This document shows, one piece after another, positions 957 to 31,680 of a stretch of 64,000 nt of DNA. Position numbers and translations under genes: made by a program. Positions within the stretch are counted from its first letter, which is position 1. Each line of letters opens with the position of its first letter. Origin of the DNA: Chrysoperla carnea (Eukaryota; Arthropoda; Insecta; Neuroptera; Chrysopidae); NCBI RefSeq assembly GCF_905475395.1, contig NC_058341.1, forward strand, positions 69,447,501 to 69,511,500, written 5' to 3'. The notes beneath the pieces are model-generated. The model was not told the DNA's origin and made no database searches. It worked only from the letters and a program-made list of their open reading frames with translations.

Positions 957-965
957 TATTCAACA
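957..965. repeat. 9-bp target site duplication, left
   Basis: TATTCAACA directly precedes the left terminus of the foldback element and is repeated exactly at 8901-8909. Nine bp is the usual duplication length for foldback (FB/NOF) and most Mutator-like elements. Confidence 0.92.
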
Positions 966-2560
966 ACCGTCGTGAAGTTGGCCCCCGCATTTTTTGTTCC
1001 AGAATATAAACCATATGGTTCGATTGTACTCGCATTAAGATGGATTGTTCCAGAATTTCACTCTTTTGTACCACCCCATTCTCGAGATATTCAATTATAT
1101 ATGCGCGGGGGCCAACTTCACGCTAGCCCCCGCATTTTTTGTACTGAAATTTTAATGCTACCTTTCGGAAGAACAATCAAAATAAAGGATTGTTCCAGAA
1201 TATAAAGGGAAAAAAATCAAAAATACGGGGTGGGGAGCCAAAAATATACCAACCCACTAATACAAGTTAACAAGTTACCAATTCAGTAGAATAACGCTAT
1301 AAACATAGATTTCTTACAAAAGACTATAAAATTGATATTATTGTTCATTTTGAGAAATGTATACTGAAAACGGCAGCCATGGGGAGGATATTTATAAGGG
1401 TGCAATTACATGATGATGGAAAATTATGTAAATGCTACTTCTTGAGACGTTAGTACTGAGCTACTGTATGTGCCAATTGATAGATATACGTTAAAAAAGG
1501 ATTTTTCCAGAATATTTAATCAATACAACTTCAAATGGGGCGTGAGGGAGCAAAAATTCACCCCCGATACAAGAGTAAACACATAACGCATTCGTTTGTA
1601 CTGGGCTATGAATGAAATTTTTAGAAAGAATACATATAGAATAACTTAGTTTTCCATTTTCACCATTTTTAAACTTCGAACGTAGCCACAGGGAGGTGAT
1701 ATATATTCGGGGGAGACCTAACCCTCGCTGTGCTGCTTTCTATGACGTTTGTACTGGGTTACTGTATACGCCAATCGATAGATATACATTAGTAGAGGAT
1801 TGTTCCAGAATATTAAATCAATTCAACTTCAAATGGGGCGTAGGGGAGGAAAATCAACCCCCGATACAAGAGTAAACACATAGCGCATTCGTTTGTACTG
1901 GTCTATGAATAGAATTTTTGGAAAGAATACATATAGAATAACTTATTTTTCCATTTTCACCCTTTTTAAACCAGGAACGTAGCCACAGGGAGGTTAGATA
2001 TATGCGGGGGAAACCTAACCCTCGCTGTGCTGCTTCCTGTGACGTTTGTACTGGGATACTGTATACGCCAGTCTATAGATATACATTAGTAGAGGATTGT
2101 TCCAGAATATTAAATCAATACAACTTCAAATGGGGCGTGGGGGAGGAAAATTTACCCCCGATACAAGAGTAAGCACATAGCGCATTCGTTTGTACTGGTT
2201 TATGAATAGAATTTTTGGAAAGACCACTTATAGAATAACTTAGTTTTCAATTTTCACTACTTTTAAACCAAGAACGTAGCCACAGGGAGGTGATATATAT
2301 TCGGGGGAAACCTAACCCTCGCTGTGCTACTTCCTGTGACATTTGTACTGGGATACTGTATACGGCAATTGACAGATATACTTTAGAATAGGATTTTTCA
2401 TGATATTAAATTAATCAAACTGCAAAGGTTGGGGACGTAAACGGTATTATATCCCACCGATACAACAATCAACAAATATCTTTCTCGTTTTTAGCTAATA
2501 TATTTGCAAAATGTTTTTACTGGGCTGTTATCAGAAGGTTGGGGGAATTTATGTGGAGGG
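966..2560 (+). repeat. Left inverted arm of foldback element with ~300-bp units
   Basis: Positions 966-1375 pair with 8490-8900. After that come repeat units starting near 1380, 1686, 1985 and 2278, each carrying 'gtagccacagggaggt' or a variant at its boundary, followed by 'cctaaccctcgctgtgct', 'ggattgttccagaatatt' and 'gatacaagagtaa'. The first three units pair with the right arm. The fourth (about 2278-2560) is diverged and has no partner, so the arms differ by one unit. Confidence 0.85.
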
Positions 2561-2728
2561 GACAAAGACAATGTGCCGATTGATATGTTGACGCCGAGTC
2601 CAAACAGCTTGTGATAGAATTTTACATATAGTTTATATATATGAGAGAAGTTTGTGTAAATGAAGTCTGTATATGTTGTACTAGAGGAAGGGGAGGAATA
2701 TTGTTTAGGTAAGTGTTGTGCAAATTAT

Positions 2729-5700
2729 TTACTTTCTAACAAAAATTAAAACGCACACCGTTGTTTTAATTCTATTTGGATTGACCGTTATTATTTCGGA
2801 CTTTAAGCCGTCGTGTAGCTGCCATTTACTTGAAGCACGAAGGCAGTATGCTACATAGTGCCCAATACTATTCTCCACCTTTGGAGGTAAATTTGTAATG
2901 GCAGCGACAAGCTTAAAATTGTCATTGAAAATATTTATCTCTACAGGCAAATCTGATAATTTTATTTGGCCAGACCAATCTGGATCATTGTGTTTCGGAA
3001 AGTTTGTAAATTCTACGTCAATTATTAAATGATTCCCAATAACAGTAGAAGTTTCCATATCCTCCTTACATGATTTGCATTGTTGATTTAAAGCGATTCG
3101 TAGAGATTTTTTTATATTTTCTTCGACACCAGCAAAACCAGTTTCATAAAAATATTGGGGAGTTAAGCATAATGCAACAACAGAAGATGAACGTGCGGAA
3201 TTACATTTTTTACATTTCCGGATATTTATGACACTGGGCTCATTTTTAAAGAGATATTCTGCCAGCTCTATTACGTTTCCAGAACAATCTAATACATTAT
3301 TTTTCAGGGAATTCCCACGCCATTTCAATAAGAGGTCGGCCCTTTGTTTATAAATAGAAGACTTAGGCCCTTGCATTACAAAATTTTTTACTAATTCAAA
3401 AAACTGAATGCCGCTTTTGTCAACGAATGTATTATATGAATTTATATCGACATAGGCGGCAGAAAATGCTTGGGCCAAAGTATCAAAAGGACAGGTATAT
3501 GTTACCTGTATTTTCATGCCATTTATTACTAAAGAAGGTAGAATACTCCCATTTCTTAATAACAATTTTTTTGAACTAATTGTTATTGGTTTGCCTTCAA
3601 TTGATGTCATTCCAGGACATTTTTGTAAATATTTATTCGTTTTGATTTTTTGCGCTGCTTTTCCCTTCCAATTTTCAACTTCGTTTAAATGATCAAGATC
3701 GGTCCCTAAATTATTATTACATATTTCAAGATTTTGACTGATATTTTCACTTTTATCAATGAAAATAGAATTGACATTTTGTGTTGGTTTAAATTTTAGT
3801 TGCTCCTTTGACAGTAAAAGAGTTGATTTAACCAATTTCACTGTACCTTCAATAGATCGTACGTGGTGAACAAAGAACTTGTCAGCTCGAATAGGTAAGT
3901 TCTCGTTCTTGAGAACAGAATTCTTCAAATCGTTGAAGTAACTTTCCACATACGATGACGATGCAGTTACAGTCGCCATATACTTCGAAGATAAAACTCC
4001 TGTCCACATTACGAAGTGTTTACATATTCTTAACAAATCTTGAGCAAAATTTGGTAAGTAATATGCATTAAGGCGACTTCCTTGGACACCACATTCTTGA
4101 AGTGCTTCTGCTTGAATTTTTTGTATCTCTGTCAATTTATTCTTAGTAGCATCTTTTACGAAAGCCTCCGCTAAAATTTCCTCTTCGTACTTATCAACAT
4201 CGTCTACAAAAGTATCCCCTTCAATTGTTTTAGTTGTTTTATTAACGAATTGTTCTATTTTATAGCTTTTAATTCTATTCATGAGAAAGACCTCCCGATT
4301 TTCACAAGGCGTTAAAAAATCCATATCCTTTACTCGACCGCTTCTTTTACTTTGTGAAACGACTAGAACGGAAAGCAAAATTTCCCTAAAATCTTCCAAA
4401 GTAGTACACTGCGACAGGATACCAACACAACGGACGTAGAAATCTTTCACTTTAAATTGTGTACTATGGAAACACTTCCAACGGCATACCAAATTAATAA
4501 GATGGGCTATATCAATGCGTAAAAATGTTCGGGGTAAATGCACATTGTCATCTTTTGCATCTTTTAAAATTTGCAAACACAGGTCAATATAGTTGGATAG
4601 CTCCATTCCATTAAATGCCAAAGAAACAGCATTCATCAAAGCCAGTGAAAAATCCGTGATAACTTCAAAAGGTATGGGGAGTCTTGTTCGTAGCCATTCG
4701 CGAAGCCAATATGCTATCATGTTTGCGTTATGTTTTTCCGATAGCATTTGTACAATTGGAACCACTGCACTTTTTGAGGAAACTACACATTGATATAAGA
4801 AAATACTGCCGGAATAGTCGTTCCCTTTGTGTACCTGTTGCACAAGTGATCCAGTTGCATCTATAGAAATGCTTATTCTCTCACGGTGGCTCATTTCTTT
4901 GTAAATTGTCGCTTGATTTATGGTCCAGTATATGAGGTGAAATTTATTTAAGCACAATTCCTTTATAATATCTGCAAATTCGACAGACTCATTAAGATTA
5001 TGAAATGATTCTACTAAATCGGTACATTTCCCTCCAATCAAAATCTCATCGCGAATCTCCTGTTTTGCTTTTCTTAATACTTCAAGACTATAAAGATTTG
5101 CGGGTTGTGGTTCGCCGTATAGCATGCAGCGGTTTGCGTTTTCACGTCTCCAATTTGCTGCTTGTGTGCTAGTTAATTCCTTTCCGATTTCGCGGCGGGA
5201 TTGCCCAGCCAGGCGACGTTTTTTAATATGCGCATGACCTCGGGTGTCAGAAGCCGTGACTTGTAAAATAATATTTTCATCTGTCTTTTTTGGCTTAAAT
5301 AATAAATGTGCACTTAAATTTGAATGGCATTCATGGCACAAGGCCGATATTTTTAAATAGGGACAACCTGGGCTTTCAGATATGATTCCTCGCTTAAAGA
5401 CAAACGCACATGGAATTCGTAATTGCTCCCATATTGCATTATAAATTATATCAGTCCACCCTTTTCTTAAAACAGAATATCCACGAGTGTGATCACGTTT
5501 ATCCTGGTAGTTTAAAGAGGAAGGTATTATTTTAGACCAAAGAGCCGCAGATATTGTAAGAATAGTATGCGAAAGAGGAAAGTTTTTGCTTTTGACATCT
5601 TTCTTTTCTATGATGGAATAAGATAAATCAGAACAAGCAACGGATTCTGTAGACGTATTATTTATATCACCAGTGTTTATTTCGGTTTCCTTCGGTTCAA

Positions 5701-5938
5701 TAATTTCTTCTTGACTGAAGAGTCCTTTAGCTTCGAAATACAAATTTTTCAACTTATATCGATTTCCATGAAACATTACCCATAAATGTTTTGGAGTAAT
5801 TTGATTACTAAGGCGTTTACTAATTTCTCTCCATATACCACTGGACGGAGGTATGAGTTTACCAATTTCATCATAAAGATTAAAATCAAGAGCCTCATCC
5901 AAAATTTCAGTCGGGAGTAGTTTCAAAGTTCTCGGCAT
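2729..5938 (-). CDS. Transposase fused to a ubiquitin-specific-protease-like domain
   Basis: The frame opens upstream at a TTG, so I take the first ATG (5938, context TTTAAAATG), giving 1069 residues without interruption, ending in TAA at 2729. Early in the protein is a Cys/His cluster (SPGCPYLK...ALCHECHSN). The central region has candidate DDE residues D360 (SISIDATGS), D429 (VITDFSLALMNA) and E665 (SSYVESYFNDLK), with RIDIAHLINLV between the last two. The second and third motifs resemble those of Mutator-like transposases. The C-terminal ~270 residues have the order found in C19 ubiquitin-specific proteases: C816 in TCPFDTLAQ, two CxxC pairs (C909/C912, C954/C957), H1027 in IGHYVAY, and D1043 in WQLHDGL, 16 residues after the histidine. 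Proteolytic activity and the DDE assignment are inferred. The gene is the only long one in the foldback element and presumably mobilises it. Confidence 0.8.
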   Translation of the reverse strand: MPRTLKLLPTEILDEALDFNLYDEIGKLIPPSSGIWREISKRLSNQITPKHLWVMFHGNRYKLKNLYFEAKGLFSQEEIIEPKETEINTGDINNTSTESVACSDLSYSIIEKKDVKSKNFPLSHTILTISAALWSKIIPSSLNYQDKRDHTRGYSVLRKGWTDIIYNAIWEQLRIPCAFVFKRGIISESPGCPYLKISALCHECHSNLSAHLLFKPKKTDENIILQVTASDTRGHAHIKKRRLAGQSRREIGKELTSTQAANWRRENANRCMLYGEPQPANLYSLEVLRKAKQEIRDEILIGGKCTDLVESFHNLNESVEFADIIKELCLNKFHLIYWTINQATIYKEMSHRERISISIDATGSLVQQVHKGNDYSGSIFLYQCVVSSKSAVVPIVQMLSEKHNANMIAYWLREWLRTRLPIPFEVITDFSLALMNAVSLAFNGMELSNYIDLCLQILKDAKDDNVHLPRTFLRIDIAHLINLVCRWKCFHSTQFKVKDFYVRCVGILSQCTTLEDFREILLSVLVVSQSKRSGRVKDMDFLTPCENREVFLMNRIKSYKIEQFVNKTTKTIEGDTFVDDVDKYEEEILAEAFVKDATKNKLTEIQKIQAEALQECGVQGSRLNAYYLPNFAQDLLRICKHFVMWTGVLSSKYMATVTASSSYVESYFNDLKNSVLKNENLPIRADKFFVHHVRSIEGTVKLVKSTLLLSKEQLKFKPTQNVNSIFIDKSENISQNLEICNNNLGTDLDHLNEVENWKGKAAQKIKTNKYLQKCPGMTSIEGKPITISSKKLLLRNGSILPSLVINGMKIQVTYTCPFDTLAQAFSAAYVDINSYNTFVDKSGIQFFELVKNFVMQGPKSSIYKQRADLLLKWRGNSLKNNVLDCSGNVIELAEYLFKNEPSVINIRKCKKCNSARSSSVVALCLTPQYFYETGFAGVEENIKKSLRIALNQQCKSCKEDMETSTVIGNHLIIDVEFTNFPKHNDPDWSGQIKLSDLPVEINIFNDNFKLVAAITNLPPKVENSIGHYVAYCLRASSKWQLHDGLKSEIITVNPNRIKTTVCVLIFVRK

Positions 5939-5959
5939 TTTAAATTTGTAATAAAACAA

Positions 5960-6540
5960 ATTTAAATTTAAAAAAAATCAAAAACAAGTTCAATTTAAAA
6001 AAAATAATAATTCCAAAAATAAATCGAAATAATTAAAAATAAACTCCGACACGAAAAAATAAGTGAACAAAAAAAAAAAGCACAAACAATAAAACAAAAT
6101 TATAAACCAAAAAAAAAAACTCAAAAATCGAAAAATACATACATTTATACATGTATATAATAAAAACAAAATTAATCAAAAATTAAAAAAAAATTATTTT
6201 ATTTTTCGGCGAATAAATCAAAACACCAAAAATATGAAGGAAAAATAAAGCTTATAAAAGCAAAAAATTGTAAAAATGATAATAAATGAAAAAAAGCAAA
6301 AAAATTGACACAATAAAAATCCACGATAGAATAATATTTTCGAAGTTATATTAAACGGAAAGATACCAATCTATATGTTGAATTATCCAAATAATATTCT
6401 TTGTATACCTAATAAGTCAAAGTACCATATGGAAAGCACTACGCGAATTAACTACAAGTTAATCATATTGTTTCAAATGACTACAACTGTAACTACTACA
6501 ACTGTAACTCACTCACTCATGTATTAGTAGAATAAAAATA
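5960..6540 (-). promoter_or_regulatory. AT-rich leader/promoter region of the transposase gene
   Basis: Some 580 bp of very A-rich sequence upstream of the ATG, with no open frame and no shared repeat that I can see. It must hold the promoter and 5' leader if the gene is transcribed from inside the element. No single TATA box can be picked out because TATAA-like words are frequent by composition. Confidence 0.35.
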
Positions 6541-6549
6541 GGCTTTATG

Positions 6550-7345
6550 TATGGATTAAAAGTTCGGGCAACGAAACTTTGGGGTTTTGCTTTTTACTTA
6601 AAAATAAGTATTTTTTGAAATTTTTTACTTTCTCGGAGTGGTGCAACAGGTCAAAAAAACAAAATGGCGTCAAAAATGGTATTTTTTTCAGAAATTTTAT
6701 CTTTTTTATTTTTTATTTTAAAGAGGAGATATCGGAGCATATCTAAATTTGGTAAGTTTGTAGTAATGGTTATAAACTACACCACATTTTTTTTGGGGGG
6801 GTTTTTGTTACCTCCCTCCCCAAGTTATACATATATATATATTATACATGTATATGATAAATGAGTTCATTTGACTGTAACTTGAAAAATATTTGACCGA
6901 TTTTAATGAAATTTATACCAAAACTAGGTTATAACACGTACAACTTTCAGTTAAAATTTTAACTAAATTCGCCGAATAATTCGGCCAAAATTTTAAATTT
7001 TATGATTTTTTTAAAATGGCTGCCATTTTATGCCATTTGGTCCTAGAGTGTTAATTTTTTTTTTAAATTGTAGCATTTTTTATTATCTTTCGATTTTATA
7101 AGAAGTTGCATGTCCGTAAAATGATTTCTTGACCCATATTTTTGCAAAAAACAGAAAATTTATCACTTTTTAGAAATGATCTTTTCAGAACGGCTGCCAT
7201 TTTAAGCCATTGGGTTCTAGAAAGTTAAATTTTTATTTAAATTGTAGGTTTTAGTATTAACTATCGATTTTATAATAAGTTGCATGCCCGTAAACTGGCT
7301 CCTTGATCCATGTTTTTGCAAAAAACGGGAAATTTATCATTTTTT
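6550..7345 (+). repeat. Dispersed repeat family F, copy 1 (inside foldback element)
   Basis: Begins 'ggattaaaagttcgggc' and contains 'aaaatggcgtcaaaaatgg', a TA-rich microsatellite and 'aatggctgccatttta'. The same features occur in the same order at 29130-29790. Here the last ~180 bp is tandemly duplicated (about 7010-7190 and 7190-7340); the other copy has it once. No coding potential. The foldback element appears to have picked it up, or it inserted there. Confidence 0.75.
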
Positions 7346-7439
7346 GGCAAAAAATGTACCTATTATTTTTTGTGCATAAAAAAATATTTAAAATAAATTG
7401 AAATATTTTTTTGTTTGTTTATTTTTCTTTTATTTTTGA

Positions 7440-7565
7440 CCTATGTTGCTTATTTTGAACTTGAGGTCAAGTTCGTAAATGAGCAACATAGGTCAATTGG
7501 GTTTTGGGTCCGAAGGACCCATCTTCTAACCCTTTAGAGATAGAGCAAAAGTTTAAATGTAAAAA
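7440..7565 (+). repeat. Family A fragment, copy 2 (inside foldback element)
   Basis: An internal piece of family A: 'gttcgtaaatgagcaacat', 'aggacccatctt', 'agagatagagcaaaagttt'. Only the middle of the repeat is present, just inside the right inverted arm. Confidence 0.75.
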
Positions 7566-7599
7566 ATGTTCCTTTCAAAAACTAAACACAAAAAGTGGT

Positions 7600-8900
7600 T
7601 TAAAAATAGTGAAAATGGAAAACTAAGTTATTCTATAAGTATTCTTTCCAAAAATTTCATTCATAGCCCAGTACAAACGAATGCGTTATGTGTTTACTCT
7701 TGTATCGGGGGTTAATTTTCCTCCCCTACGCCCCATTTGAAGTTGTATTGATTTAATATTCTGGAACAATCCTCTACTAATGTATATCTATCGATTGGCG
7801 TATACAGTATCCCAGTACAAACGTCACAGGAAGTAGCACAGCGAGGGTTAGGTTTCCCCCGCATATATCTAACCTCCCTGTGGCTACGTTCGTGGTTTAA
7901 AAATAGTGGAAATTGAAAACTAAGTTATTCTATAAGTTGGCTTTCTAAAAATTCCATTCATATACCAGTACAAACGAATGCGCTATGTGCTTACTCTTGT
8001 ATCGGGGGTTGATTTTCCTCCCCTACGCCCCATTTGAAGTTGAATTGATTTAATATTCTGGAACAATCCTCTACTAATGTATATCTATCGATTGGCGTAT
8101 ACAGTAACCCAGTACAAACGTCATAGAAAGCAGCACAGCGAGGGTTAGGTCTCCCCCGAATATATATCACCTCCCTGTGGCTACGTTCGAAGTTTAAAAA
8201 TGGTGAAAATGGAAAACTAAGTTATTCTATATGTATTCTTTCTAAAAATTTCATTCATAGCCCAGTACAAACGAATGCGTTATGTGTTTACTCTTGTATC
8301 GGGGGTGAATTTTTGCTCCCTCACGCCCCATTTGAAGTTGTATTGATTAAATATTCTGGAAAAATCCTTTTTTAACGTATATCTATCAATTGGCACATAC
8401 AGTAGCTCAGTACTAACGTCTCAAGAAGTAGCATTTACATAATTTTCCATCATCATGTAATTGCACCCTTATAAATATCCTCCCCATGGCTGCCGTTTTC
8501 AGTATACATTTCTCAAAATGAACAATAATATCAATTTTATAGTCTTTTGTAAGAAATCTATGTTTATAGCGTTATTCTACTGAATTGGTAACTTGTTAAC
8601 TTGTATTAGTGGGTTGGTATATTTTTGGCTCCCCACCCCGTATTTTTGATTTTTTTCCCTTTATATTCTGGAACAATCCTTTATTTTGATTGTTCTTCCG
8701 AAAGGTAGCATTAAAATTTCAGTACAAAAAATGCGGGGGCTAGCGTGAAGTTGGCCCCCGCGCATATATAATTGAATATCTCGAGAATGGGGTGGTACAA
8801 AAGAGTGAAATTCTGGAACAATCCATCTTAATGCGAGTACAATCGAACCATATGGTTTATATTCTGGAACAAAAAATGCGGGGGCCAACTTCACGACGGT
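7600..8900 (-). repeat. Right inverted arm of foldback element
   Basis: This is the reverse complement of about 966-2277. Unit boundaries carrying 'acctccctgtggctac' or a variant lie near 7872, 8170 and 8482. Variant bases match the corresponding left-arm unit (for example 'gtctccccc' against 'gggggagac'), so the arms have been homogenised or copied together rather than diverging independently. Confidence 0.85.
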
Positions 8901-8909
8901 TATTCAACA
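8901..8909. repeat. 9-bp target site duplication, right
   Basis: TATTCAACA, identical to 957-965. In uninterrupted family A copies the equivalent site reads 'taatcaaca', which identifies the pre-insertion target. Confidence 0.92.
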
Positions 8910-12852: not shown

Positions 12853-15800
12853 ATTATTATTATTATTATTATTATGATTTAAAATTTGAAATTAACGAAT
12901 TCATGCCTGCCAAGGAGGGAGAGAGGATACAGAATTTACACCCCAGAGCCTCCCATCTCCTTGAGAGACATAAATCTTCACAAGGCAGCTACGTCTTTTG
13001 AAGAAAGTTCACTGACTTGTGGCCGTGTAGTCTGTACGTCCGTCAGTCAACGCGACGTCCGTTTGTCCGTCTGTTTTCCGAGTCGGGGGTACGTAAGTCT
13101 GTCTGATGTCCTGGTCAAGCAGGCTCCGTCCCTGCACCGCAGCGATGTGGAACCTACTAAAATAAAGAAAAACAAAATAGAGAAAAAGAAACTTCAAGGG
13201 CTGTTACTTGAAGACAGTCTGATGCGATCTCAATGTACGAAGGGTGCCTATAATGACAGCCTTCTGCATAGAAGAGATAAGGTGACGAAGATGAGACCTG
13301 CAGACCGGAATTTGAGATAGATTCGTCTCGAGAGTGGGACGAATTCTGCCTAGGCAACCGATAATGAGGACAACCATTTTGACTGAGTAGCCAGGGTGTA
13401 GTTGTCGTAGTTCTTGTAAGAGATCAAGATATTTAGTCCGTTTTTGCTCCTCCTTCGTGACTATGTTCGTTTCTGCAGGCGCAGAGAACTCGATGACGTA
13501 CATAGTCTTAGATGAGATATCCTGGAGCACTATATCAGGCTTAGTAGCAGAGAGCTGCCTGGTAGTTGGGAACGAGAAATTCCAGAAGATAATGCATTTC
13601 TCGTTCTTGACGACGGACTCGATCTCGCCTGGAGCATATGGTAGGACTGGCGTAGGGTCCACTTCATACTTGTGTCTCAAGAAGTAGTACAGCACGCGGA
13701 GGGCAGCGTTATGGCGATGTATGTAGGTGTTTGTGGCATAAAAAGGACATGCCGAGATGAGGTGCATCAGCGTCTCCGGCTGAGATTTGCACGCTCTGCA
13801 CATAGTGGTGGAGACTGATTTTTTATATACATACTTTTGGTGAGTTAGCGTCGCTATCACCGCGTCGCCATCTTGGGCAGCGATGATAAAGCCTTCTGTT
13901 TCGGACTTGAGTCCAGCTTATCGCAGAAAAGAGAACGTAAGATCAACGGAAAGACTACAGGTGTCAAGATGACGGTAGAACATTCCCTGATGGTCACGAT
14001 TCCGATGATCTTGGAAGAGGGAGCGTATTTCAGCTCGTTTCACAGCTGAACGAAGTCGAGATTTGGAGAGAAGGATCACGTTATCATCAAGATCATGATT
14101 AGACGGATCAAAAGCAAGGCCCAATTTAGACGCTGCATGTTGTGCTGCAGAGAACAAGAATGCTCCTTTACCCTGTAACTCATGATCGCGCACGAGTTCC
14201 ATAAGAGGGTCTGAACTATTTATGACCTGACAAGCTATTCCTAAAACTACCCTATCATGTAGACATTCAACGGATAGGAGACCTCTACCTCCTTGCTGGC
14301 GTGGGAGGTAATTACGCGGTACAGAAGCACGTGGGTGCAAACTACGATTGACGTTCATGAGTTTGCGAGTGCCTCTATCAAGTTCCTTAAGCTCCTCTAT
14401 TGTCCATTTGATGGAACCAAAAGAATAGAGAAGGATGGGTATTGCAAGCATATTAGTAGCACGGATCTTATGGATCCCAGACAATTCTGATTGCCAGATT
14501 TGTCGAAGACGGTGCCTTTACCTGCCGCGAAGAGCTTCCTTGACAGTAGACACACTTTGAATGTGGTTTTCACCGACACCCAAATATGTGTAGAGCTCTT
14601 CTTCATCGAGATGTTTCACGATGCTTCCATCTGTGAGCTGCACGTCTGCATCGTAATCAGGGACACGACCTCTCTTACAATGAATGACGGCACATTTATC
14701 AAGTCCGAATTCCATGCCAATAGCCTTCGTGTACTGATGGACAGCTTTGAGAGCTTGAGATAGACTGCTCTCAGAAGAAGCATAAAGTTTCAGGTCATCC
14801 ATATAGAATAGATGAGTTACCTGATGCTTTCTATCTGTCGGGGGACCACAACGGTAACCGGTTTCTTCTCGCAAGCGCAAGGAAAGGGGCATAAGGGAGA
14901 TGCAGAATAAAAGCGGGCTAAGGCTGTCGCCTTGATAGACACCACGCTTATACGTTACCAGATCTGTTGAGACAGTACGTTTACCACATCTAATGGTAAA
15001 CTTGGTCTTCCACAAAGGTAACAGCTCTTCGATGCATCTGATGATATCGGGGTGAATTTTCAAACATTTGAGCAGCACCAATATGAGTTGGTGAGAGGTA
15101 GTGTCAAATGCTTTCCTATAATCCACCCAGGCCATACTCAGGTCGCGTTGATACTGACGGGCGTCTTGACAGATACATCTGTCAACAAGAAGATTATCTT
15201 TGCAACCTGATATACCTCGTTTGGAGCCGAGTTGCTCGTATATCATCTGCCAAACCGATACTATGGTTGTGAGTATGCGTTCATTAAGAATGGAGGTGAA
15301 CGCTTTGTACACGGTATTGAGACATGTAATCGGGCGATAATTGCTCGGAACTGAAAGGTCTCCTTTCTTGGGAATCAAAACTGTTCGTCCTTCCGCGAAC
15401 CTCGTTGGAAAGGTCCCGTACCCAAGGATGTATGAAGTAAAGTGCCTAGCAAGATGCGCGTGTGTGGAAGTTAAACGTTTCCACCAGAAGTTGGACACAG
15501 CATCCATGCCAGGCGCCGAATGATTCTTCTTGCCTTTGAAAGCAAGGGATACTTCATCAGCGGTAACAGATGTTAGGACCGCTTGTTCTGCTAGGCGCGC
15601 GTTGCAGAACCTTTCGAACAGTTTGATTGGTCTTATATTTTTATCTACACTGGTCGACTTTTCATATAAATCACGCCAGTAGCCATCGATTTGCTCTATC
15701 GAAGGTGGATTTTCGACAAGAGAAGGGGGTTTTGCAAATAAACGGGAAGGATTCGATACAAAGATCTTGTTCTCTCGAATACACTTCTCGCGTTTAACTA

Positions 15801-17182
15801 GCTTTTTCCGAGCGAGAGCTAGTGCACGTATCTTTTCAATGTTTCGCTGCTTGATAGTGAGCAGGATACCCTTGTTTAGTGTGTGGTGTTGGTGCCTGAG
15901 TTCACGCGCGAAGGCTCGCACCTTTGGGGTGAAGGGTTTACCAGCTTTCTGGTACTCTAACACACACTCGATACGTGATACCGTCTGTCGAAGAGGCGTC
16001 AACTTGGAGTCAAGTTGCTCTATACGCTTGCATGTTTTCTCCTCGGCTGTCTCAGTAGACTTGGGGGCAGGAGAAAGAGCACACATTGCAGCATAGACTG
16101 AGCTATCGATTTCGAGTAGGCTACTTGTGTGATTCAGATGATCGTCGACGATCTGGTTGATTAAAGCAAGGTCTTGTGCTTTGGCAAACGTTTTGCGGTA
16201 CTTGGGACGTTTGCGTTTGGAAAGGTCATTATCGGTATTGAACAGGATATTTTGAAACCGTTCTTTAAGCTCTTCCAAACGAGTGTTTGGTGGCTCAGCA
16301 GGAAGGATCGGAGTTTGGGATAGTCCTGGGATATCTTCGGGTATCAGAGGCGTAGGTGGCGAAGCCTCTAACACAGGTGGTGGTGGGGTATTTTGACATA
16401 CCCGATCCTGTGTCTCAGTATCAGATCTCTCACTTTCTAATACTGGCTCATCCTGAGATATTCCATCCTGCGTCTCAGCGACTAATGTCTCACGTGTAGA
16501 ATGAACTACACCAATAGCAGCCGGCTCTATCTCATCACCTCGATTCACTTCCGCTTGCGTAGTCCTGCATCGTTTCTCAATTCCTGTTCGGGGTTTGTCA
16601 AATCCGGTTTTTTTGAGACGGGATACTTGATCGCGTAGATGTTGCGATTTCATATGGGAAAGTTCGGGATGCTTTTCGCACCAGAGGGTGTGCTTCCTGC
16701 CCATATAGCCACGTCTCGATGGTTCACTTGCTTCGTAGCAAGTGAGCAGGTCAGCCTTAAGTGCCTTCGTCCATTGAAAGCGCTGAAGACGACTGTTTTG
16801 TGTGCTCGCTCGACTTTCTTGAGAAGTGCCTTGAGATGGCCCTTCGTCGTCAGCGGCACGTCTAGTCTCCGGAACTAGCCTGGGATCCAAAGCCAAATTT
16901 GATTGCTCTCCCTCATATCCGTGAGAGCTACCCCCTATAGGTAAGGTAGAAGCGTCACCTGCAGGGGGGCGGGGTTCTGTAGGACTAGGTCGACTACTAC
17001 CCGCCTGAGGACCGAAAAATCTGCTTCTCAAATTTGACATTTTTGGATTTGACTCATTTAGCTCCGCTGAGTCAGCACGGACCCACCTCGTTAGCCCATC
17101 ACTTTGAGCGGAATTGATGGTTACCGGGTATGGCACGTGTCCCAGTGTTAGGCTCGGACGTGAGGTTAGGGATTGCCTGCCC
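12853..17182 (-). mobile_element. Dong/R4-type non-LTR retrotransposon inserted in (TAA)n
   Basis: On the minus strand the element starts GGGCAGGCAATCCC at 17182, directly after a (TAA)n tract, and ends ...TTTTAAATCA followed by seven TAA units at 12853-12873. It has ~140 bp of 5' leader, one long reading frame and ~330 bp of 3' untranslated sequence. The R4/Dong clade encodes a reverse transcriptase and a restriction-like endonuclease in one frame, as here, and to my knowledge Dong elements favour TAA repeats. Near full length, but the gene carries two stop codons. Confidence 0.85.
13204..17040 (-). pseudogene. R4/Dong-type retrotransposon polyprotein with two nonsense codons
   Basis: The first ATG is at 17040 (an upstream GTG only extends the open frame). 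The frame is continuous for 1278 codons to 13204 except for two in-frame TAA codons at 14518-14520 and 13918-13920; no frameshift is needed. Domains in order: a Ser/Pro-rich N terminus; a Myb/SANT-like DNA-binding region (about residues 87-134, RFQWTKALK...); a reverse transcriptase with 'NYRPITCLNT', 'QGDSLSPLLF' and the catalytic FYMDDLKLY (YMDD about 746-749); the segment 'SGIHKIRATNMLAIP'; 'GLKSETEGF'; a CCHC knuckle (CRACKSQPETLMHLISACP); and a restriction-like endonuclease with KPD (D about 1169) and E about 1184 in VIEFSAP. These are the classical parts of RLE-type LINE proteins. Both stops lie outside the catalytic cores but would remove the nuclease, so the copy should be inactive in target priming. 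Confidence 0.88.
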
Positions 17183-30001: not shown

Positions 30002-31680
30002 TTAATAATTGTCCTTTTTACAACATCCACACCTCCCCCTCCTGCTTTCATATTTTTTGCAAATTCTAAATTTAAATGACGTATGGTAAGCAAACGTGAG
30101 TAATGGAATTATCAGAGCTTGAACCATTTGGATTATTACCTTAAAAGGAAATTCATTGTATCCATACATTTGTTTTCGAATAGACAACCACACACCCCTA
30201 GCTTTAGCTATCATATTTTCATGGTGTGCCTTCCACTGCCCATTATAGTTGATATATGTTCCCAAATATTTACATACTTTCACATTCCCAATATTTTTCC
30301 CACTTATAGACCACTGCTCCTTCACACTGTGCTTAGAGCCTTTACTAATTATAAGCATTTTTGTTTTTTCTATATTTAAATTTAAATGCCATCTACTGCA
30401 ATACTCATTTACATTAGTCAAAGTTCTTCTCATTCCTCCTATACTTTGTGAAAGCAGAACCACGTCATCTGCATACATCAGTAGCTTCACCTCATGCATT
30501 CCAAAGCAAGCTCCTACAGAATTCAAAGAATTCAGATCGTTTATAAATAGAATGAAAAGAAGAACGGATAATTGGCATCCTTGACGAACACCTCTATCAT
30601 TACTAAAGGTCTCTGTTACTGCATTACCACATTTAATGCACCATGATGCATTAACGTAAATCGACTTAACTGCTTCAATTAAATCGTTTGGCATTCCCAT
30701 ATGATATAATTTTGCTCAAAGCATTTCCCGTTAATCAAGTCGAAAGCCTTGGGGTAAAATCAAGAAAATAACAATAGAGTTTACTCCGTTTCATACGGAT
30801 GCTTCTATCAATTAGGCCTTTAAGGACAATAATATTGTCTTGCACTCCATAGCCTTTCCTAAAACCAGCTTGATATTCGGATATAATGATGTTGTCCTCA
30901 ACCCATTTCGTGATTTTGTTCGGTAGCATTCCCGTGTAGACTTTACTTATGTTAGGTAAGAGAGACAGACCCCTATAATTATTAGCATCATTTTTGTTGC
31001 CCTTTCCTTTATAAAGGTTACATATGACACCTGTCGACCATGCTGAAGGAAAATATGCATTTTGCCCCATTTTCTGAAAGAGTCCCGTTTAAACACTTGC
31101 AAAGCTATGGTGAGTGCTAAGACATAAAATGAATTCATTCAGAATGCCATCATGTCCAGGTGCTTTTCCCTTTTTGACATTCATTAGAGACCACTGTATA
31201 TCCTCTGCACTCCATTCGATACCTGGAATTGTTGTTCTGTTGTTTGCATTTATATTATTTACAGACGTATCATCATGATTAAATAAATCTTTGTAATGCT
31301 TGATCCAATTTAATAAAGGTATTTGTTTGCTGTCATATATGTTTCGCGTTTTTATTTGTTGCCTTAGTTTTTGCGTGTATTTTGTCTCTAGAGCGTTTTT
31401 TATGTTTTCAATTTTCTTTTTTTTCCAAGCATTTTTTTATGACTACAAAGTAGTTTGTATTCCCGCTTGCTATTTAAAAAGAGTTGAATATTATTTATAG
31501 TTTTCATCTTTCTCATTTCCCTTAAGCTTTTTTTCATAAACTTTCTTTTAACTAGGCATTCACTATCGAACCATTCACTTTTGCCAATCTGGTTATGGCA
31601 CGCCATACTATGTTTTTTGGAATCGGATAATAGATATTCTATCCACAAATCAAACACTTTAACAACTGTAACAGCCGAAA
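30002..31680 (-). pseudogene. LINE reverse transcriptase relic 1
   Basis: Minus-strand pieces in order: a pre-RT region (about 31657-31400, WFDSECLVKRKF... REYKLLC), 'KGKAPGHDGI' (around 31150-31190), 'NNYRGLSLLPNISKVY...EYQAGFRKG' (31070-30735), then 'RGVRQGC...INDL' and the catalytic MYADDVVLL (about 30460-30480) within 30700-30002. At least two frameshifts separate them. The order is that of an endonuclease-reverse transcriptase LINE protein, but the upstream endonuclease is missing, consistent with 5' truncation on insertion. The clade (CR1-, Jockey- or RTE-like) cannot be fixed by eye. Confidence 0.85.

Follow-up and report, generated by a model that had tools for sequence, protein, structure and literature searches.

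A foldback DNA transposon of Chrysoperla carnea with a MULE-like transposase and a predicted C-terminal USP-fold domain

Introduction

A stretch of 64,000 nucleotides from the insect Chrysoperla carnea (contig 5 of the genome searched, positions 69447501-69511500; hereafter the window) contains a foldback transposon that raises an unusual question: why would the transposase of a mobile element end in a module resembling a ubiquitin-specific protease (USP, peptidase family C19)? The original prediction had proposed this fusion from the letters alone. The probable explanation of the locus is a foldback DNA transposon, intact and mobile in the recent past, whose only long protein joins a transposase of the DDE type, like that of Mutator-like elements (MULEs), to a C-terminal USP-fold cysteine isopeptidase, which would act in cis, removing ubiquitin or a ubiquitin-like tag.

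The C-terminal module

The predicted protein of 1069 amino acids (aa) was borne out as one uninterrupted frame (Table 1). Seven C-terminal residues had been named before any homologue was seen (C816, C909/C912, C954/C957, H1027 and D1043), and each was confirmed at its place in the window protein, with two CxxC pairs between Cys and His; such zinc pairs are common in USPs, though not universal. In an alignment of six element families from the same genome, five of the seven are invariant, as are 17 of 300 positions overall (hypergeometric P = 6e-6, a value that ignores the commoner conservation of Cys and His). The domain has 14 Cys or His, and the five invariant ones are all among the residues named in advance.

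At E <= 5, a profile of the six families, with family G represented by its first exon only, matched 34 PDB sequences: 33 USPs, USPL1 accounting for two of these, and YfdQ. As a control, a profile of the same kind from the DDE region matched no PDB sequence. Alignment by hhalign with a host USP (L044, picked up by a PF00443 search of the genome) placed both CxxC pairs and the GHY..W..D block in register (P 2.4e-4, probability 43.7%); the DDE region, again as a control, gave P 0.42. In Pfam, one of the six proteins (family E) reached the curated UCH cut-off, at exactly 23.9 bits, and the window protein fell below it. Structure prediction followed by Foldseek comparison returned a USP-like, papain-like fold, so that on this check too the proposed kinship with USPs held.

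Which tag such a module would remove is less clear. USP36 and USP8 matched the profile at 1.6e-4, and USPL1, the SUMO-directed isopeptidase of family C98, far more weakly (E 0.31-0.51). A SUMO-directed protease, comparable to the Ulp1 domains of other transposons, is thus disfavoured by the sequence match. In the structure comparison USPL1 is level with the USPs, which leaves C19 (ubiquitin) and C98 (SUMO) undivided, and the fold is unable to decide the substrate. We regard a SUMO-directed module as a somewhat doubtful variant contained within the preferred explanation, with which its probability overlaps.

Conservation among families of the genome

Eight families were distinguished in this genome (559,487,470 bases, 337 contigs): A (the window), B (L009), C (L010/L018), D (L011/L016), E (L012/L017, with at least 12 open copies), G (L014), H (L046) and I (L047, L048). 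The letter F is unused. Outside the family counts stand L013, a fragment close to B that served for the selection test alone, L015, a broken D copy, and L019, a degenerate copy matched over residues 111-432. The DDE region and the Cys block are present in all eight families; among candidates scored by the two protein searches, partial rows being left aside, every family had the C-terminal module.

Free substitution of the catalytic residues, which would have told against the original prediction, was not seen in the eight families of this one genome: Cys and His are kept in 8/8, and the third place holds Asp or Asn in 8/8. The order Cys-His-Asp/Asn was found in all six aligned families (G after exon joining), and H and I were read piecewise. 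Families G and H have their His block on a downstream exon; in family I no His block was recognised in L047, and it was read in the relative L048. An apparent loss of His in family G was rejected as an artefact of reading into an intron (6301-6590; a donor after 6303 keeps the frame too), for the downstream exon carries GHY..WIKYDD. In family G, moreover, the DDE and protease parts flank a zinc finger of the SCAND3 type (PF23663, E 6.9e-10), and a similar Cys-rich stretch was seen by eye in H and I. At the family H locus (C5:65682500-65688200) the blocks are intact and spread over several open stretches; this transposase may here have given rise to a host gene.

Of three pairs of sequences compared for selection, B and L013 alone offered sufficient changes restricted to the domain. 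Their nonsynonymous proportion (pN 0.020) lies below the synonymous one (pS 0.069; Fisher P 0.0019). This constraint, together with the retention of Cys, His and Asp/Asn in eight families, speaks for a catalysis-dependent function, and the module is presumed to be enzymatically active. The alternative is a USP fold without catalysis, a platform for docking or dimerisation to which ubiquitin or some other protein would bind. Inactive USP domains do serve as platforms, as in Pan2, but loss of the very residues that are kept here would be expected of a dead domain, and we consider this alternative unlikely.

The module is common to eight diverged families, so the fusion would be older than their divergence and has since been kept; the module thus probably aids transposition in a general way and was not captured recently.

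Several observations weigh against an active USP-fold module on a MULE-like transposase. The window protein alone has no USP match in Pfam and its C-terminal part none in PDB by phmmer; USP matches came only from the family profile, not from single-sequence searches. The structure prediction drew on six sequences; of its five models one scored poorly (mean predicted local distance difference test score, pLDDT, 40.9), and the Foldseek TM-scores are moderate (0.34-0.51 by query, with root-mean-square deviations of 6.9-16.6 Å among the matches listed). The canonical Cys box of USPs has Asn at Cys-5 and Cys+3, and USPL1 differs from it. That canonical box was not found here: at Cys-5 the six families have, by eye, Q, F, K, F, N and M, without conservation, and at Cys+3 all six have Asp. 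Family E has lost one zinc cysteine, which breaks its second pair; in family G this pair is spaced CxxxC. Constraint is weak in the D pair (pN 0.011, pS 0.019, over a stretch wider than the domain), and the E pair has too few changes for a selection test. The core of the DDE region is also modelled poorly, with pLDDT below 50 at model residues 194-350. Because the Cys box departs from the canonical one, we call the module USP-fold rather than canonical C19, and this departure would also fit another tag, for example SUMO, or a platform without activity. The negative single-sequence searches would also suit a chance resemblance of motifs, a reading that the six-family profile matches, the hhalign result, the invariant residues and the predicted fold with its Foldseek matches reduce to a negligible probability.

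The transposase

D360, D429 and E665 stand where the original prediction had put its DDE-type region and are invariant in the six aligned families, as is D476xxH479 between the second D and the E; the triad of MULE-type transposases carries a (C/D)xxH motif at this point. The Pfam MULE model gave a weak match to one of the six proteins (E 0.035, 15 bits against a cut-off of 27.6). In the model of residues 130-712 (mean pLDDT 58.8, predicted TM-score 0.36) the N-terminal part is good and the catalytic core, for which the MULE type would call for an RNase H fold, poor. Given the weak Pfam match and the poorly modelled core, assignment to the MULE type on sequence grounds is likely, not proven. 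The well-modelled part, residues 130-301, is probably a zinc-dependent DNA-binding domain.

A genome search with PF10551 returned 14 rows, none of which overlaps the element families by coordinates. Twelve of the 14 lie on contig 1, where Pfam MULE matches of a different kind cluster at C1:138.2-139.8 Mb.

Structure of the element and its copies

The transposon spans positions 966-8900 of the window (7935 bp) and is flanked on both sides by TATTCAACA, the target duplication of about 9 bp expected of a Mutator-like element. The inverted arms align over 1312 nt at 98% identity and contain 297-bp tandem units, which bears out the foldback structure.

Table 1. Features of the transposon, in window coordinates
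Feature	Position	Strand	Basis or remark
Left 9-bp target site duplication TATTCAACA	957..965	.	same 9 bp beyond the opposite end
Left terminal inverted repeat, terminus ACCGTCGTGAAGTTGG...	966..2270	+	~98% identity to right repeat
Tandem 297-bp subrepeats, left arm and beyond	1553..2443	+	3 copies, 100/92/80% to the first
Single open reading frame, 1069 aa: N-terminal region, DDE-type transposase, C-terminal predicted USP-fold domain	5938 (ATG)..2729	-	uninterrupted frame
Alpha/beta domain, residues 130-301, invariant C177, C201, C204	5036..5551	-	model residues 1-172, block pLDDT 73-88 up to 170
DDE catalytic region	3944..4861	-	D360 (4859-4861), D429 (4652-4654), DxxH 476-479, E665 (3944-3946); invariant in six families
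Predicted USP-fold domain, ~residues 790-1069	2732..3571	-	profile matches, hhalign, predicted fold
Predicted catalytic Cys816	3491..3493	-	first residue of predicted helix 47-62 of model
First CxxC (C909/C912), predicted zinc site	3203..3214	-	six-family alignment
Second CxxC (C954/C957), predicted zinc site	3068..3079	-	C957 is Ser in family E
Predicted catalytic His1027	2858..2860	-	first residue of predicted strand 258-264
Predicted catalytic Asp1043	2810..2812	-	just past predicted strand 270-273; Asn in family D
Right terminal inverted repeat, 297-bp subrepeats on inner side	7596..8900	-	arm alignment
Right 9-bp target site duplication TATTCAACA	8901..8909	.	identical to left

At least 58 genome matches to the window protein were found, of which at least 17, the window included, are full-length, about 100% identical and free of stops. 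When eight other copies were compared with the window frame, seven differed at 2-3 of 3210 nt, with two differences common to all seven (S75 and S123 in the window, I and L in the copies); the eighth (L020) has in addition a length change beyond the reach of an ungapped comparison. Element ends were sought at ten other copies in 201-base pieces. A left-type end stood at the expected place in three, and the remainder had repeat units or other sequence there, as expected if the number of units varies between copies. A second end was found further out, by eye, in two of these three: the contig 2 copy has the 9-bp target duplication CTGCATAAA and the contig 1 copy no duplication (also by eye), so that two of the three copies with both ends read, counting the window, are duplicated at the target. 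The tandem units of the arms vary in number among copies, as in foldback elements: most copies had repeat units at the places where ends were expected, and one copy is ~594 bp longer.

Inverted arms were also measured in other families, inside fetched stretches at whose ends several are clipped: 1999 bp in D (L011), 1776 bp in C (L018, but 116 bp in L010), ~460 bp in E (L017), 251 bp in B and 2088 bp in G; none was found in the fetched stretches of L012 or L013. The family G arms (L014:5588-7669 and 2-2088; 2.09 kb, 99.5% identity) overlap the end of the coding region, which places the His-bearing exon inside the inverted duplication. A large number of family G matches are confined to about residues 173-409, with 88-95% identity (for example C3:37186055-37186726, C1:48151257-48151898 and C3:416723-417364); they may represent a piece of the transposase gene that arose by deletion or was amplified separately.

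Elsewhere in the window, non-LTR retrotransposon-like frames with a reverse transcriptase YMDD block lie at 13204-17136 on the minus strand (an 872 aa frame with pieces of 188 and 218 aa) and look R2/R4-like by eye only. Another reverse transcriptase fragment, with a YADD block, was seen by eye at 30002-30700 (minus strand). A small inverted repeat at 62-624 (arms 74-141/204-271, shorter inverted ends 64-88/600-624) is perhaps another small element adjoining the foldback element.

Proposed role

The USP-fold module would work in cis, at the position of the transposase, and strip off ubiquitin or a ubiquitin-like tag. The likeliest targets would be the transposase itself, which could thereby escape proteasomal removal or be released from cleaved DNA, and chromatin or repair proteins at donor and target sites. 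The original prediction had put forward stabilisation of the transposase or resistance to host silencing as a possible purpose. We infer such cis deubiquitination of transposase, chromatin or repair factors as the most economical role. The alignment also shows the DDE and USP parts joined by a poorly conserved linker of variable length, as a self-processing protease that releases the transposase from the fusion might have. USPs, however, normally cut after ubiquitin-like tags, and inspection of the alignment by eye, without a dedicated search, revealed neither a ubiquitin-like stretch nor a cleavage motif in common; self-processing appears very improbable. Returning to deubiquitination in cis, a tentative extension, which we hold to be less likely than not, is a whole clade of animal foldback transposons with a deubiquitinating or deSUMOylating transposase, aimed by its DNA-binding and DDE parts at chromatin or repair proteins near the cut and editing silencing or repair marks in cis, as ancient general machinery.

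With a predicted USP fold joined to its transposase, the element could edit tags on host proteins at the sites where it jumps. The element is testable, with intact, near-identical copies in the host insect, and Chrysoperla carnea is reared commercially.

Comparison with known systems

Foldback elements also include FB-NOF and Phantom, and the NOF protein is of similar size. Tm1 (PMC3169594) and Tetris (PMC4079207) are alike in their long composite inverted repeats of tandem units and their 8-10 bp target duplications. The words "protease" and "ubiquitin" do not occur in the main text of the Tm1 paper, nor do "ubiquitin", "protease" or "peptidase" in the main texts of two MULE surveys (PMC6446971, PMC13359780). 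The USP-fold finding may also account for the C-terminal part of other foldback proteins. Among the titles listed from the open-licence literature, supplements, Repbase and subscription papers being outside this scope, no USP-bearing animal transposon was found, which does not establish novelty in print. Viral contigs, phage records and contigs of prokaryote genomes held no relatives, a comparison that bears on those collections, not on insect genomes, and is silent on spread in animals. The sole fusion of a transposase with C19 in the literature covered is XP_001314237.1 of Trichomonas vaginalis (transposase_11 with Peptidase C19, cited in PMC2836005). It differs in its transposase_11 type and protist host and is likened here by description, not by sequence.

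Compared with USP/C19 and USPL1/C98 isopeptidases, the window module is alike in predicted fold, Cys-His-Asp order, paired CxxC and the GHY..W..D block; it differs in being fused to a transposase, in its Asp at Cys+3 and in lacking a conserved Asn at Cys-5. Ulp1 is a protease family distinct from USP, without the USP-type zinc finger, and the plant Kaonashi elements are Ulp1-bearing Mutator-like elements. Ulp1-bearing Mutator-like elements of plants, hydra and lancelet (cited in PMC2836005) also combine a MULE-type transposase with a ubiquitin-like protease; they differ in that this protease is Ulp1, not USP. Ginger1 DNA transposons, as described in PMC2836005, likewise join a transposase to a C-terminal protease of the ubiquitin/SUMO pathway, but the protease is OTU or Ulp1, the transposase is Gypsy-integrase-like and the terminal inverted repeats measure 44-270 bp. 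The same source notes that unrelated transposons carry OTU or Ulp1 proteases and that the ubiquitin pathway was proposed to take part in transposition. To this pattern of OTU and Ulp1 transposons, a predicted USP-fold domain on a recently mobile animal element would add a further protease fold.
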